Shown here: positions 29,684 through 35,821 of the stretch, in pieces
Numbering within the stretch: the first letter of the stretch is position 1
How the letters are laid out: each line of letters begins with the position of its first letter
Assembly (NCBI GenBank): GCA_017454625.1
Contig: JAFTCP010000066.1
Location: 1-43,188 of the forward strand
From: Synergistaceae bacterium
GTDB taxonomy: Bacteria > Synergistota > Synergistia > Synergistales > Aminobacteriaceae
DNA length: 43,188 bases
Direction of reading: 5' to 3'
Notes under the pieces: generated by a model
Databases searched by the model: none
What the model saw: only the letters and a program-made list of their open reading frames with translations
What the model was told of the DNA's origin: nothing
Made by a program: the position numbers and the translations under genes

Positions 29684-30205
29684 ATGAATGAGCGTTCAGG
29701 ATTAAATATAAACATGAACAAGGACGAGAGTTCTGACTATCAAAATCTCGTCGGTCAAATTCTTGCGCGTGTAAACCAGTTATCCCCCGCAGGATTTGAA
29801 CAGCTCATCACGGACTTATTAATACGCATGGGCTACGAAGTCTACAAAAACGCACGCCGACGCACGAGCACTTCAGCAATTCAGGGAATTATCATCGAGG
29901 ACAGACCAGGTTACAAGCCGATTTATATTCAGACACGAAAACTTGAGAAGGGGAGCATAATTACCAGCTGGAACATGCAAAGTTTTGGTGATGCCGTTGA
30001 ACGTAAAGCCGGGCGCGGACTTCTTGTTACTAATGCAAGTTTCTCGAAGCCCGCACAGGAATACGCAAAGGAAAAACGAATTATCCTAATCGACGGAAAT
30101 ATCTTAGCGCGCTTAATGATAGTTCATAACTTTTGCGTCAACGTTAAAGAGGTCGTCGAAATCCGCTCAATAGATCCAAACGCTTTCAAAGATTACGACA
30201 TTTAG
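29684..30205 (+). CDS. Mrr-like restriction endonuclease fold, catalytic site lost
   Basis: This 173-residue protein is homologous to the Mrr catalytic domain: LSPAGFEQLITDLLIRMGYE, then a core of IQGIIIEDRPGYKPIYIQTRK, GLLVTNASFSKPAQEYAKE and ILIDGNILARLMIVHNFCV. In active relatives the core reads GGIDGII and QAKR. Here the aspartate is Gln (SAIQGII) and the catalytic lysine is Arg or shifted by one (QTRK), so nuclease activity is unlikely. It may bind DNA without cutting it or be a decaying gene; the frame is intact. It ends convergently with glf, with a 4-bp overlap. Confidence 0.85.
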   Translation: MNERSGLNINMNKDESSDYQNLVGQILARVNQLSPAGFEQLITDLLIRMGYEVYKNARRRTSTSAIQGIIIEDRPGYKPIYIQTRKLEKGSIITSWNMQSFGDAVERKAGRGLLVTNASFSKPAQEYAKEKRIILIDGNILARLMIVHNFCVNVKEVVEIRSIDPNAFKDYDI

Positions 30206-31317
30206 ATAATATCGCCGAAGTTGTCAAAAGCGTGTTCCGTAGCCTTAATCACAGCCGCGTCCATATCGTAATAGAAATATTCGCCTAATCTACCCGCAAA
30301 AATTACGTTAGGGGCTTTAGTCTTCGCAAACTCCTTGTATTGATTGGCGAGCTTGTTATTCTTGTAATTATTCACAGGGTAATACGGCTCTGCTCCTGCT
30401 TTCCATTCTGAACTGAACTCGCGGGTTATAACCGTTCCCGGAACGTTCAAGCCCGGATAAAAATGTTTATGCTCAACACAACGCGTAAACGGGATTTCAT
30501 GGTCCGTGTAATTAACTATCGCGTTTCCCTGAAAATTATTAGTATCGCTCAAAATTTCCGTCTCAAATCTCAGACTTCGATATTCAAGCGTCCCTAATAC
30601 ATAATCAAAATATTCGTCGATTTGGCCCGTGAAAAATATTGTGTCGGCCATACTCTGAAATTCCGCGCGGTTCGTGAAAAAGTTTGTATCCGTCATAACT
30701 TCGATGCCTTCAAGCATTCTCTCGATAATTTTCGTGTAGCCGTCAACAGGAACTCCCTGATACAACGCGTTGAAATAATTGCTGTCATATGTAAATCTCA
30801 CAGGCAGCCTGTTAATGATGAATGCCGGAAGCTCTTTGCACGGCCTGCCCCATTGTTTTTCGGTATAACCTTTGATTAATATCTCGTAAATATCCCGACC
30901 GACGAGTGAAATAGCTTGTTCTTCGAGATTTTGCGGGGTCGTGATGCCAGCTTCTTTGCGCTGTTCTTCGATTATTGTTCGGGCTTCTTCGGGTTTCGTA
31001 ACTCCCCAAATTTGATTAAACGTGTACATGCTGAATGGCAATGAGTAAATTTTTCCGCGATAATTCGCAATCGGAGTGTTCGTGAACCTGTTGAACTTCG
31101 TGAATTTATTAATATATGTCCAGACGCATTCGTCATTAGTGTGAAAAACGTGAGGGCCGTATTTATGAACTTTGATGCCGTTGATGTTCTCATCGTAAAT
31201 ATTTCCGGCTATGTGATTGCGCTTGTCGATGACGAGGACTTTTTTCCCGTGCTGTTTGGCTTCATAAGCGAAGATTGCTCCGGTTAAGCCTGCTCCGACG
31301 ACTAAATAATCATACAT
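30202..31317 (-). CDS. glf: UDP-galactopyranose mutase
   Basis: Glf uses reduced FAD to convert UDP-galactopyranose to UDP-galactofuranose for surface glycans. The 371-residue protein has the FAD motif VVGAGLTGAIFAYEA, KVHKYGPHVFHTN, EKQWGRPCKELP, TRCVEHKHFYPG, and a final GRLGEYFYYDMDAAV. It is divergent from the phosphoramidate-pathway genes with 119 bp between. In Campylobacter the phosphoramidate group is often placed on a galactofuranose-type sugar, so the two may serve one glycan. Confidence 0.96.
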   Translation of the reverse strand: MYDYLVVGAGLTGAIFAYEAKQHGKKVLVIDKRNHIAGNIYDENINGIKVHKYGPHVFHTNDECVWTYINKFTKFNRFTNTPIANYRGKIYSLPFSMYTFNQIWGVTKPEEARTIIEEQRKEAGITTPQNLEEQAISLVGRDIYEILIKGYTEKQWGRPCKELPAFIINRLPVRFTYDSNYFNALYQGVPVDGYTKIIERMLEGIEVMTDTNFFTNRAEFQSMADTIFFTGQIDEYFDYVLGTLEYRSLRFETEILSDTNNFQGNAIVNYTDHEIPFTRCVEHKHFYPGLNVPGTVITREFSSEWKAGAEPYYPVNNYKNNKLANQYKEFAKTKAPNVIFAGRLGEYFYYDMDAAVIKATEHAFDNFGDII

Positions 31318-31436: not shown

Positions 31437-34334
31437 ATGAAGATTTCATACAGTTTCGGAATTATGGACTTGTTTCATTACGGTCATTTACGCGCATTAA
31501 AGCTCGCTGATGAGGGCTCAGATTTACACATCGTAGGCTTAATCTCGGACAAAGCCGCTCGTGCTTGGGTAGGCAGCATAGTCTCAAGCGAAACAGAACG
31601 CAGGAGGGTTCTGGAAAATCTCAAATGTGTAGACTGGGTTATGCCCCAAGATACTCTGGATCCTACGGAAAATCTAAAGAAACTTCATCATATTTACAGC
31701 GACGCGGAAATTACGTTATTCAGGGGCGACGGAATTTCGATTGTTGCCGCACGGGAATATCTCAAAGGAATTGGCGGAAAAGTTCAATCAATCGATTATT
31801 ACGAGAAACTCTCACCGGCTCAGATCATGGACACGCTGAATAATTATCAGGCCAATGCAGAACGTCATCAAGGAATTATCGCGACAAAAGCCGAAGTTCT
31901 CGCCGCCCTCAAAGAAAGATTGACATTATCAAAAATTGAGGAGATATATATTCTCAAGATTAAGGATTTCAAAGCTGACCCGGAAAAAATATTTGCTGAC
32001 ATATCCGCAAAATATACTAATAGGAGAGGGGGACAAAGAATTGTCGTGCGAAGCTCTTCGTCGCATGAAGACAGCCTAGAAACTTCCAATGCAGGACATT
32101 ATGAAAGCGTCTTAAACGTTGACCCAGCGAGTTACGAGGAAGTTATTAATGCAATCGAAAGAGTGAGAAAATCTTATGACACCCAGCCCCAAGATGAAGA
32201 CGACGAACAAATTTTAATTCAGTCCCAAACTCAAGATGTAGCATTAAGCGGCGTAATCTTCACACGGGAAATTCAAGCCAGCAAGCCCTATTACGTCATT
32301 AATTACGATGCCTCAGGTTCAACCAACACAGTTACAAGCGGAGGGAGAAGCAGCGTAGTCTACATCGCTCATGATGCGGATATTAATGAAATTCCTGACA
32401 GATGGAAAAATTTATATCTCGCCGTCAAAGAAATCGAATCAATCTTAAGCCGATTATTACTCGACATAGAATTTGCGATAAGGACAAACGGGGAAATTGT
32501 GATATTCCAAGTCAGGCCGTTAGCCGCAAATTATCGTTATGGTGTCAGCGGATTATCTAATAAATTACTCGACGACAAGAACAAAATACGCTCGCAATAT
32601 CAACTCTTCAGGAAAAATTCAGGCAATAATATTTTGTCGGATATGGCATTCTGGAACCCGGCGGAGATAATCGGCGAAAACCCGCATAGATTAGATTACT
32701 CGCTTTATAAGGAGATAATCACAAGTCATTCATGGAACTCCGGGCTTGTCCCGTTGGGTTATCGGGAAGTCAACAGGGATTTAATGTATCGGCTTGGCAA
32801 TAAACCGTTTATCTGCATCGAATACGCTTTCGAGTCTCTTATTCCCGCAAGAATTTCTGACAGCTTAGCCCAAAAATTAAAGAGTTTCTATATTGCAAAA
32901 CTTAAACGCGACTTCTCGGCTCATGACAAAATAGAGTTCGAGATAGTTATCAACTGTTTCGACTTCGCAATCGATGACAAACTCGCTGAACTCAGAGCAA
33001 ACAACTTCACTGACGAGGAAACGAACGCGCTTAAACAGGCATTATTCGACATTACGAATGAAGCTGTTAGAAATTACGAGAGAATTTTACATGACGATTT
33101 AGCCTCACTTGATGACCTCGAAAAAATCAGGCTCAATGTAGAACGTCAACTATCAGATTTAACCGGAACTCATGAACTTGTAAAACATGACGGCGAATTT
33201 CTCAGCTCAGGCACAACGGGAAATCATAAACTTGTAAAATCCAATGGAGAATTTCTCGAAACAGGAAAAACCGAAATTCATGAGTTAATAAAATTGGCCG
33301 GAGAATTGCTCGATGCTGTGAAAAATTTAGGAACTCCCCAGTTTTCACGTCAGGCGAGACTTGCTTTTATCGCGCGTGCGTTATGCGGATCGTTACGGGA
33401 TAAAAATTTCTGGAGCGTTGAAGATTATAATAACTTCATGGCAGGAATTGAGACAGTCGCGACCTCGTTCAAAGAGGACTTCAGCAAGTTCATAAACGGA
33501 GAGATTAACACCGAAGACTTTAACGGGACTTACGGGCATTTGAGGGCAGGAACTTATGACATAACAACGCCCCGATACGATGCTCAGGATTTCTCAGAAG
33601 GGAACGGGAATATCTCAGCTTCGGACGGGAAAAATCAAAGCCGAGAAACTTTTACGAATATCGACGGAACAGAACGAGCCTTGAAAGTTTACGGGATTGA
33701 CGCAGAGCCTGAAGAATTTTTGCGCTTCATGAAACAAGCTCTTGAACAAAGGGAATATTTCAAGTTTATATTCACTCGTTCACTTAGCCGAGCAATTGAG
33801 ATAATCGCGATTATCGCTGAAAAATTAGGCTTCGACAGAAACAACATATCATACTTCGGCATTGAGGAAATTTTAGGCTTGCAATTCTACGATAACATTA
33901 ACGACATGAGCGAATATTTACGTGAAACATTGCCCGAACGCAAAAAAATTTATTCAGGCTATTCACAGGTAATAATGCCGGAGATAATCAGCTCGCCTTC
34001 AGACTTCGACATTGTGAGCATGACCGACGCACGCCCGAATTTCATAACGGATAAGAAAATTTCAAGCGAATGCATAAAACTCGGCGAGAATAATAATCTT
34101 GACATAGCGGGAAAAATTATCTTAATCGAAAAAGCGGATCCCGGCTATGACTGGATTTTCACGAAGAATATTGCGGGGTTAATCACGAAATACGGCGGGG
34201 CGGCTTCTCATATGGCTATTCGATGCGCTGAGTTCGGAATTCCTGCGGCAATCGGATGCGGCGAGAAAATTTTTGCTTCGGCTTGTTCACGTGAATTTAT
34301 CGAGCTTGACTGTCATAACAGGAAAATATTGTGA
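31437..34334 (+). CDS. Cytidylyltransferase fused to L-glutamine kinase-like enzyme
   Basis: This is a 965-residue fusion. Residues 1 to about 140 are a TagD-like nucleotidyltransferase with HxGH as FHYGH (His14, His17) and FRGDGIS. The rest resembles PEP synthase/PPDK. It has an ATP-grasp domain (RIVVRSSSSHEDSLETSNAG, about 200-360, ending EIVIFQVRPLAANY), a long helical middle, and a C-terminal swivelling domain with the phospho-carrier His925 in GGAASHMAIR. This layout without a PEP-binding barrel matches Campylobacter Cj1418, an L-glutamine kinase that phosphorylates the side-chain amide for capsule phosphoramidate. The next two genes match the following steps, which supports the assignment. 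The TagD-like domain is an extra part, perhaps a second CTP-using step. An 18-residue repeat occurs three times near residues 579-628. PEP synthase-like phosphotransfer to another substrate is the alternative. Confidence 0.8.
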   Translation: MKISYSFGIMDLFHYGHLRALKLADEGSDLHIVGLISDKAARAWVGSIVSSETERRRVLENLKCVDWVMPQDTLDPTENLKKLHHIYSDAEITLFRGDGISIVAAREYLKGIGGKVQSIDYYEKLSPAQIMDTLNNYQANAERHQGIIATKAEVLAALKERLTLSKIEEIYILKIKDFKADPEKIFADISAKYTNRRGGQRIVVRSSSSHEDSLETSNAGHYESVLNVDPASYEEVINAIERVRKSYDTQPQDEDDEQILIQSQTQDVALSGVIFTREIQASKPYYVINYDASGSTNTVTSGGRSSVVYIAHDADINEIPDRWKNLYLAVKEIESILSRLLLDIEFAIRTNGEIVIFQVRPLAANYRYGVSGLSNKLLDDKNKIRSQYQLFRKNSGNNILSDMAFWNPAEIIGENPHRLDYSLYKEIITSHSWNSGLVPLGYREVNRDLMYRLGNKPFICIEYAFESLIPARISDSLAQKLKSFYIAKLKRDFSAHDKIEFEIVINCFDFAIDDKLAELRANNFTDEETNALKQALFDITNEAVRNYERILHDDLASLDDLEKIRLNVERQLSDLTGTHELVKHDGEFLSSGTTGNHKLVKSNGEFLETGKTEIHELIKLAGELLDAVKNLGTPQFSRQARLAFIARALCGSLRDKNFWSVEDYNNFMAGIETVATSFKEDFSKFINGEINTEDFNGTYGHLRAGTYDITTPRYDAQDFSEGNGNISASDGKNQSRETFTNIDGTERALKVYGIDAEPEEFLRFMKQALEQREYFKFIFTRSLSRAIEIIAIIAEKLGFDRNNISYFGIEEILGLQFYDNINDMSEYLRETLPERKKIYSGYSQVIMPEIISSPSDFDIVSMTDARPNFITDKKISSECIKLGENNNLDIAGKIILIEKADPGYDWIFTKNIAGLITKYGGAASHMAIRCAEFGIPAAIGCGEKIFASACSREFIELDCHNRKIL
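33171..33320 (+). repeat. Three in-frame 54-bp tandem repeats
   Basis: CATGAACTTG (33171), CATAAACTTG (33225) and CATGAGTTAA (33279) start copies exactly 54 bp apart. The protein reads HELVKHDGEFLSSG, HKLVKSNGEFLETG and HELIKLAGELLDAV. The repeats lie in the helical linker of the glutamine kinase-like protein and keep the frame. Confidence 0.9.
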
Positions 34335-34361
34335 AGAAATATCATGAAGGAGGAAAATATC

Positions 34362-34991
34362 ATGAAGACTGTAATTTTCACACAGCGAGTTGACATAATC
34401 GAGGCTTATAACGAACGCAGGGATTGTGCGGACCAACGAATAACGGAGCTTATAAAATTTTGCGGTTATCTTCCTGTTCCAATTCCCAATAAGCTAAATC
34501 ATGAGGAGATTGAAAATTTTATCGGAATAATCAATCCTTCAGGAATAATTTTCACCGGCGGCAACAGCTTAGTGAAATACGGCGGCAACGCTCCTGAACG
34601 AGATTTTACGGAACATGTTTTAGTCGACATTGCCATTGATAAAAATATTCCCGTTTATGCGCTTTGTCGAGGAATGCAATTTATTCTTGATTACTTTGCT
34701 CAAGAACTCGTGAACGTAAAAGGGCATGTTGCAATTCGTCATGAATTAATCAGCGATGAAAAAATTTACTCAGGCCGTGAAGTCAATTCATATCATAATC
34801 AGGCTTGTGTAAAATTAATTCCCGGCGAGCTTGAAACTTTAGCAAAAACTTCTGACGGAGTTATCGAAGCCGTACGACATAAGACCAGGCCAATTTTAGC
34901 GACAATGTGGCATCCGGAACGTGAAAGCGTGTTTGTGAGTGAGGATATTGACATGATAAAAAATTTATTTGCTGAAGGAGAAACGAATTAA
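34362..34991 (+). CDS. Gamma-glutamyl-CDP-amidate hydrolase-like amidotransferase
   Basis: This 209-residue class I glutamine amidotransferase-fold hydrolase has the nucleophile elbow YALCRGMQF with Cys102, then SYHNQACVKL and MWHPERE with the catalytic His and Glu. I choose ATG 34362, since AAGGAGG (34347-34353) sits eight bases before it; the in-frame ATG at 34344 lies before that site. It belongs to the peptidase C26 group that includes Cj1417, which releases cytidine diphosphoramidate from gamma-glutamyl-CDP-amidate. Its place between a Cj1418-like and a Cj1416-like gene argues for this over a general gamma-Glu-GABA hydrolase. Confidence 0.82.
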   Translation: MKTVIFTQRVDIIEAYNERRDCADQRITELIKFCGYLPVPIPNKLNHEEIENFIGIINPSGIIFTGGNSLVKYGGNAPERDFTEHVLVDIAIDKNIPVYALCRGMQFILDYFAQELVNVKGHVAIRHELISDEKIYSGREVNSYHNQACVKLIPGELETLAKTSDGVIEAVRHKTRPILATMWHPERESVFVSEDIDMIKNLFAEGETN

Positions 34992-34993
34992 TT

Positions 34994-35776
34994 ATGAAAG
35001 CATTGATTTTAGCGGCAGGACAAGGGACGAGGCTCAAGAAATACACGCAGGGACTTCCCAAAGGAATGCTGAATTTCGACGGCAAAACTATTATTCAACG
35101 TCAGCTTGAGATTTACAGGGCTTGCGGAATTGATGATATTTCCATCGTAAGGGGCTATGCGGCTGAAAAAATTAATTATGAGGGCGTGAAATATTATGAC
35201 AATCTTGACTACGCAAATACAAACATGGTCGAGTCCCTTATGGCGGCAAAAAGCGAGTTCAACGATGACTTAATCGTGAGCTATTCTGATATTTTGTTCG
35301 AGCCCGGAATGTTGAAAGCGATGATGAACGCTGACGGGGATTTTTGCGTTTCCGTTGATGATGACTGGCGCGAATATTGGCAAAAACGTTACGGGAAAAT
35401 TGACTTTGACACCGAGAGCCTCACGATTGACGACGATAATAATATCACTGAACTCGGACTTGAAAATCCACAACTTGAAACGATAAGTGCAAGATACATA
35501 GGATTATTGAAGTTTTCACGCGCTGGGCTTGAATATATCGTAAAAACTATGAATGAAGCCTACAAGAATTACGAGGGCAAAGCCTGGCAGCAATCGGGTA
35601 AAACAGTTCGCAAAGCCTACATGACGGATTTACTCAACGCGATAATCGAATCAGGACGAAAAGTTAAGGCGGTAAGATTTTCTCACGGATGGATTGAGTT
35701 CGACACAAACGAGGATTACGAGCAAGCCTGTAAATGGGCAGAAGACGGCTCATTGAAAACGTTGATTAATCTTTGA
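34994..35776 (+). CDS. CTP:phosphoglutamine cytidylyltransferase-like enzyme
   Basis: This is a 260-residue sugar-nucleotidyltransferase fold. It has LILAAGQGTRLKKYTQGLPK as the nucleotide-binding loop, VSYSDILFEPGM with the metal Asp, and FSHGWIEFDTNEDYEQA at the end. Members next to glutamine kinase genes (Cj1416 type) move CMP from CTP to L-glutamine phosphate. It begins two bases after the hydrolase gene and completes a three-gene operon. A MobA-like or phosphocholine-type cytidylyltransferase is the alternative. Confidence 0.82.
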   Translation: MKALILAAGQGTRLKKYTQGLPKGMLNFDGKTIIQRQLEIYRACGIDDISIVRGYAAEKINYEGVKYYDNLDYANTNMVESLMAAKSEFNDDLIVSYSDILFEPGMLKAMMNADGDFCVSVDDDWREYWQKRYGKIDFDTESLTIDDDNNITELGLENPQLETISARYIGLLKFSRAGLEYIVKTMNEAYKNYEGKAWQQSGKTVRKAYMTDLLNAIIESGRKVKAVRFSHGWIEFDTNEDYEQACKWAEDGSLKTLINL

Positions 35777-35786
35777 TGAATTAATG

Positions 35787-35821
35787 CCTCCCCTGAAATT
35801 TTATGCGGGAGGTTATTTTTT
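35787..35821 (+). terminator. Terminator of the phosphoramidate operon
   Basis: CCTCCC (35787-35792) pairs with GGGAGG (35807-35812) over a 14-base loop and is followed by TTATTTTTT. It closes the three-gene operon. Confidence 0.8.

Follow-up and report, generated by a model that had tools for sequence, protein, structure and literature searches.

A three-gene cassette in a gut Synergistota genome very likely makes cytidine diphosphate (CDP)-phosphoramidate through three steps, judging by the families of its enzymes, the order of its genes, and the preservation of catalytic residues. The window analyzed is a stretch of 43,188 nucleotides (contig JAFTCP010000066.1, assembly GCA_017454625.1) from a 2.47 Mb genome that is 98.4% complete; the cassette occupies 31437-35776 on the + strand. 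Its first gene joins a predicted glutamine kinase to an additional N-terminal domain of the cytidylyltransferase fold, here called TAG. The explanation favored overall, with somewhat better than even confidence, is a CDP-phosphoramidate cassette whose product is used directly by LicD-type transferases and whose TAG domain is functional and works with or after gene 3, the separate cytidylyltransferase.

A preliminary description of this DNA had placed three adjacent genes here, transcribed as kinase, then amidohydrolase, then cytidylyltransferase, with CDP-phosphoramidate as the expected product. Open reading frames and family matches agree with the layout, and the family assignments and gene order support the product. 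The genes are packed as one unit, with intergenic gaps of 9 and 2 bp. The cassette is not a chance reading, because the fused gene, followed by the same kinds of partner gene, is found again in dozens of unrelated genomes.

The proposed route begins with the kinase, which would use ATP to phosphorylate the side-chain amide of L-glutamine via a phosphohistidine, forming N-phosphoglutamine. Gene 3 would then transfer CMP from CTP to N-phosphoglutamine, giving gamma-glutamyl-CDP-amidate, and gene 2 would remove glutamate to leave CDP-phosphoramidate. In the host lineage this donor would escape 3'-phosphorylation and serve directly as substrate, most plausibly for LicD-type transferases that place unmethylated phosphoramidate on a glycan. 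TAG would bind CTP or a CDP-linked intermediate of the same pathway.

The three predicted enzymes

Gene 1 (31437-34334, + strand) encodes 965 residues. Its kinase part (31866..34334, residues ~144-965) comprises an ATP-binding PPDK_N region, a middle domain, and a C-terminal phosphohistidine domain; Pfam recognizes PPDK_N and PEP-utilizers. Residues 143-964 score 740.2 bits against NF004508/PRK05849, above the cut-off of 501, and gene 1 scores at most 59 bits against any phosphoenolpyruvate (PEP) synthase model. The AlphaFold model of gene 1 (mean predicted local distance difference test 85.7) gives the kinase part a rifampin-phosphotransferase fold, and the phosphohistidine H925, in SHMAIR, is invariant across a 34-sequence alignment. 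By curated-model score and catalytic residues, this part is very probably a glutamine kinase of the PRK05849/Cj1418 type. An imperfect short tandem repeat (HELVKHDGEFL / HKLVKSNGEFL / HELIKLAGELL; ~33150-33290, residues ~575-620) lies within the kinase; it is an insertion not seen in aligned relatives, predicted with low confidence.

Gene 2 (34344-34991, + strand; 215 residues) has an alternative start at 34362 preceded by a good Shine-Dalgarno sequence, AGGAGG. It belongs to the class-I GATase/Peptidase_C26 family and is, from 34362 to 34991, a candidate gamma-glutamyl-CDP-amidate hydrolase like Cj1417. Its best NCBIfam match is indeed the model for that hydrolase (NF045546), at 110 bits against a cut-off of 250, so that it is not filed as a member but only as working alike. 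The model for the hydrolase of the gamma-aminobutyrate (GABA) route scores 44.5 bits. The Cys-His-Glu triad (C108, H190, E192) is present in all 77 homologues. Together with the scores of gene 1, these values set both genes apart from the unrelated PEP synthase and GABA-hydrolase families, a separation that the preliminary description called for.

Gene 3 (34994-35776, + strand; 260 residues) encodes a nucleotidyltransferase of the GT-A fold (NTP_transf_3, PF12804, 2.6e-15), nearest in the PDB to LicC (1jyk) and PntC (6pd1). LAAGxGxR, PK, D99, W233, E235, and D237 are invariant or nearly so, at TAG and unfused loci alike. It is a candidate CTP:phosphoglutamine cytidylyltransferase like Cj1416, assigned by fold signature and likeness to LicC and PntC rather than against Cj1416 itself. 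A terminator-like hairpin and T-run, read from the sequence, close the unit at ~35787-35820 on the + strand (CCTCCC...GGGAGG, then TTATTTTTT).

In Campylobacter jejuni, Cj1415-Cj1418 convert glutamine, ATP, and CTP to CDP-phosphoramidate 3'-phosphate (PMC11800397). The Cj1418-Cj1417-Cj1416 set shares with the present cassette its three enzyme families, transcription order, and expected product. The two differ in the extra TAG domain, in the distant relationship of gene 2, and in the absence from this genome of a Cj1415-type 3'-kinase; neither does the present cassette contain a transferase or methyltransferase.

TAG, its distribution, and the 3'-kinase

TAG spans 31437..31841 (+ strand, residues 1-135) and matches CTP_transf_like (PF01467, 2.2e-8). 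The preliminary description had called the N-terminal fusion TagD-like. The fusion stands; the label needs adjusting, since among solved structures TAG is nearest to the CyTase (phosphonate cytidylyltransferase) domain of Fom1 (PDB 5x3d; phmmer, 2.3e-8), which is closer than TagD. By AlphaFold model, TAG matches 5x3d with a TMt of 0.80 and the glycerol-3-phosphate cytidylyltransferase GCT (2b7l) with 0.85. It has both the fold and the HxGH motif of these cytidylyltransferases (HYGH, residues 14-17). In place of RTxGISTT, however, TAG has YYxxLSxxxI (YYEKLSPAQI in the window gene), and some archaeal members come closer to the canonical form with YYxRLSTxKI.

Conservation is pronounced. Across 31 distinct sequences, D11, G16, H17, D29, D38, E54, R55, Q71, and N79 are invariant; H14, and hence HxGH, is kept in 29; and Y5 and S126 are also conserved. 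In eight of eight pairs TAG shows higher conservation than the kinase core, so that it is under strong selection and not vestigial. Its ratio of nonsynonymous to synonymous substitution (dN/dS) is 0.03-0.12 where computable, below that of the core in all three pairs computable for both. Gene 3 is kept together with TAG wherever this can be judged, on another contig in one genome (G063), which disfavors TAG as a simple replacement for gene 3. There is about an even chance, on these features, that TAG is a functional Fom1-type nucleotidyltransferase-fold domain acting with or after gene 3. Fom1 itself, a CyTase-PEP mutase of the fosfomycin pathway, is built on the same logic: an HxGH cytidylyltransferase is joined to the enzyme by which an unusual phosphorus bond is made. 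The partner of TAG is a glutamine kinase (P-N), that of Fom1 a PEP mutase (P-C); in addition, the RTxGISTT motif of TAG is altered, and TAG is accompanied by a separate cytidylyltransferase of the GT-A fold.

The preliminary description knew of no report of this fusion. The fusion is real, but far from peculiar to the host genome. An alignment scan of GTDB contigs found at least 542 relatives in bacteria and archaea. The best 80 of these, after hand correction of one locus (L086), include 30 fused to TAG, 25 unfused, 24 with a C-terminal glutaminase fusion, and one with an N-terminal GT-A fusion. In a second sample the kinase occurs in 15 of 398 Pseudomonadota genomes, 7 of 395 Bacteroidota, 9 of 371 from a DPANN phylum, and 6 of 380 from the class of Anaerovibrio, counts that take in the centre genomes and a few genomes already in the first sample. 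This sample adds six TAG and three GT-A-fused loci. The TAG fusion is thus known from at least 36 loci in Synergistota, Bacillota, Melainabacteria, Bacteroidota, and DPANN archaea, and the kinase-hydrolase-cytidylyltransferase trio co-occurs in most TAG and unfused loci across many phyla. On the kinase tree, which contains no Campylobacter sequence, the distribution of TAG needs about four changes; this would fit a single fusion event that spread widely by transfer and was later lost in the Lachnospiraceae.

Unfused PRK05849 loci with an APS_kinase-like gene, in Pseudomonadota, Negativicutes, Planctomycetota, and others, share the operon of kinase, hydrolase, and cytidylyltransferase. They lack the N-terminal domain, and most have a Cj1415-type CDP-phosphoramidate 3'-kinase adjoining. 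That kinase is near 19 of the 31 unfused loci with genes 2 and 3 and only 2 of 36 TAG loci (Fisher p = 8e-7, on counts that are not phylogenetically independent); "near" means a c5 profile score of at least 100 bits within 6 kb, tallied by hand. Whole-genome searches place strong matches (at least 234 bits) only in unfused genomes and one TAG genome, that of L086, a contrast that arises partly by construction since the profile was built from the genomes searched. The whole host genome yields no match to either PF01583 or the locus-derived profile. The preliminary description had noted that the CDP-phosphoramidate kinase is not in the window, and its absence thus extends to the entire genome.

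In the first sample, LicD genes lie near 8 of 30 TAG loci (two by weak matches) but near none of the 14 unfused ones; the host genome contains four LicD regions. The cassette itself stops at the terminator-like site with no transferase or methyltransferase gene within it, including any counterpart of the MeOPN transferases Cj1421/Cj1422. Direct use of the donor, most plausibly by LicD-type transferases that would put unmethylated phosphoramidate on a glycan, is a tentative proposal, a little short of an even chance. What emerges is apparently a variant route that omits 3'-phosphorylation, and hence not the Campylobacter O-methyl phosphoramidate (MeOPN) pathway proper. The earlier label "MeOPN-type" therefore went too far, given the absence of the 3'-kinase from the genome and of a transferase or methyltransferase from the cassette.

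Weighing the explanations

Several observations weigh against the favored explanation. TAG lacks the usual RTxGISTT, and gut lineages also lack a basic residue present in archaeal members. Gene 2 scores under the cut-off of its best model. The anticorrelation between TAG and the 3'-kinase largely reflects one evolutionary split, the changes in TAG being too few for a phylogenetically independent test. One locus, L086 (an Ekhidna metagenome-assembled genome with frameshifts), has TAG and the 3'-kinase together, which rules out strict mutual exclusion and leaves an anticorrelation only. The 3'-kinase is also missing at about a third of unfused loci. LicD occurs at one unfused proteobacterial locus of the second sample (L183), and none of the LicD genes in the host genome adjoins the cassette.

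Of the other roles that TAG might have, a non-catalytic one, although improbable, is the most serious: a ligand-binding domain that subjects the committed kinase to feedback control or docks its partner enzymes. YYxxLSxxxI standing where RTxGISTT is expected would fit. So would a second lineage, in which the corresponding position carries a fused GT-A nucleotidyltransferase-like domain that has lost its signature, with a separate gene 3 nearby that is, once more, intact. Against this stand the near-universal HxGH, the invariance of D11, D38, E54, R55, Q71, and N79, and the more canonical LSTxKI ending of archaeal members. Less probable still, TAG could make a second CDP-activated group, similar to CDP-glycerol or CDP-ethanolamine, for use along with phosphoramidate. 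The fold and HxGH motif are typical of CTP transferases whose substrates are phosphate esters, and LicD transferases lie near several TAG loci; yet such a role gives no reason for fusion to a glutamine kinase, and genes specific to CDP-alcohols do not recur beside TAG loci.

The closest solved relative of TAG cytidylylates a phosphonate, and the host genome contains the CyTase-PEP mutase architecture too. Both would suit a TAG that is the true phosphoglutamine cytidylyltransferase, held beside the kinase to catch labile N-phosphoglutamine as the CyTase of Fom1 is held beside PEP mutase, with gene 3 reassigned. This is quite unlikely: the catalytic residues of gene 3 are identical and invariant in TAG and unfused loci, and gene 3 persists alongside TAG, even where the two are unlinked. 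Least probable is an operon unrelated to phosphoramidate, in which gene 1 would encode a different dikinase of the PEP-synthase-like kind and gene 2 a hydrolase of the GABA type. Gene 1 is remotely similar to rifampin phosphotransferase and PEP synthase, but the PRK05849 score far exceeds any PEP synthase score and the trio is conserved across many phyla. The CDP-phosphoramidate cassette with direct use of its donor and a functional TAG remains the preferred explanation.

Natural P-N bonds are rare, and the phosphoramidate decorations of C. jejuni have a role in phage recognition. If the assignment is true, hundreds of bacterial and archaeal species have a member of this enzyme family, in four or more architectures, and microbial surfaces may quite generally bear phosphoramidate decorations. 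The fused domain also poses a defined question, the role of a phosphonate-type cytidylyltransferase on a glutamine kinase. A bolder proposal, which seems rather doubtful, is that an alternative phosphoramidate pathway is widespread, extending from gut bacteria as far as DPANN archaea. Its kinase-fused second nucleotidyltransferase would replace the 3'-kinase and make a different activated P-N donor or hand-off, and phosphoramidate-decorated glycans would be common rather than peculiar to Campylobacter. A 2022 review terms the glutamine kinase specific to C. jejuni (PMC9561416). Likewise, the literature searched, which lacked most subscription papers so that earlier descriptions of homologues are possible, discusses the kinase only for C. 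jejuni.

Neighborhood and related loci

The divergent neighbor of the cassette is glf, for UDP-galactopyranose mutase (30202-31317, - strand; TIGR00031, 387 bits, cut-off 303.75). The preliminary description had pointed to glf alongside. It is adjacent, but the adjacency carries little weight because glf is on the opposite strand and does not adjoin the cassette in the relatives G049, G063, and G113, which leaves its membership in the pathway unsupported. GC content of the genes (0.39-0.43) is similar to that of the surroundings. The kinase occurs in only 3 of 42 sampled genomes of the host's genus, with differing surroundings, so that the cassette behaves as horizontally moving. Viral spread is not favored: viral contigs yielded one distant, unfused relative. 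Plasmids carry unfused relatives only. A reading as a defence system found no match in PADLOC. Among the matches listed, the nearest named cassette-bearing relative is an uncultured Synergistales bacterium from red deer.

Elsewhere in the host genome, contig C31 carries a phosphonate gene cluster (L129, 3100-8906, - strand) with a CyTase-PEP mutase. The cluster also contains a radical SAM-cytidylyltransferase fusion, which recalls the fosfomycin order of steps; a phosphonopyruvate decarboxylase-like thiamine pyrophosphate enzyme; an iron alcohol dehydrogenase; and a small NTP transferase.

At five loci (L004, L104, L186, L187, L189), a GT-A nucleotidyltransferase-like domain takes the place of TAG at the kinase N-terminus. 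In L004, L186, and L187 this fused domain lacks the GxGxR...PK signature and an intact separate copy is nearby. The 3'-kinase is not nearby at any of the five, of which L104 stops at a contig edge. Kinases with a C-terminal glutaminase fusion come from Lachnospiraceae and Bacteroides, often beside the housekeeping genes recA, rny, and DAHP (3-deoxy-D-arabino-heptulosonate 7-phosphate) synthase (L043-L049, L053, L056, L057, L059-L061, L063-L066, L068, L070-L072, L075, L076, L079, L090). Searches of genomes with such kinases found no close gene 3 homologue, and these enzymes may release free phosphoramidate.

Marine Thaumarchaeota/Nitrosopumilus loci (L087, L091, L094) have the unfused kinase-hydrolase-cytidylyltransferase set with no 3'-kinase nearby. 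A formyltransferase-like protein (cluster c3) and a protein of ~200 residues without a Pfam match (cluster c4) recur jointly beside the kinase operon (L055, L074, L093, L095, L096, L098, L099, L101-L103, and others), and are candidates for later pathway steps.

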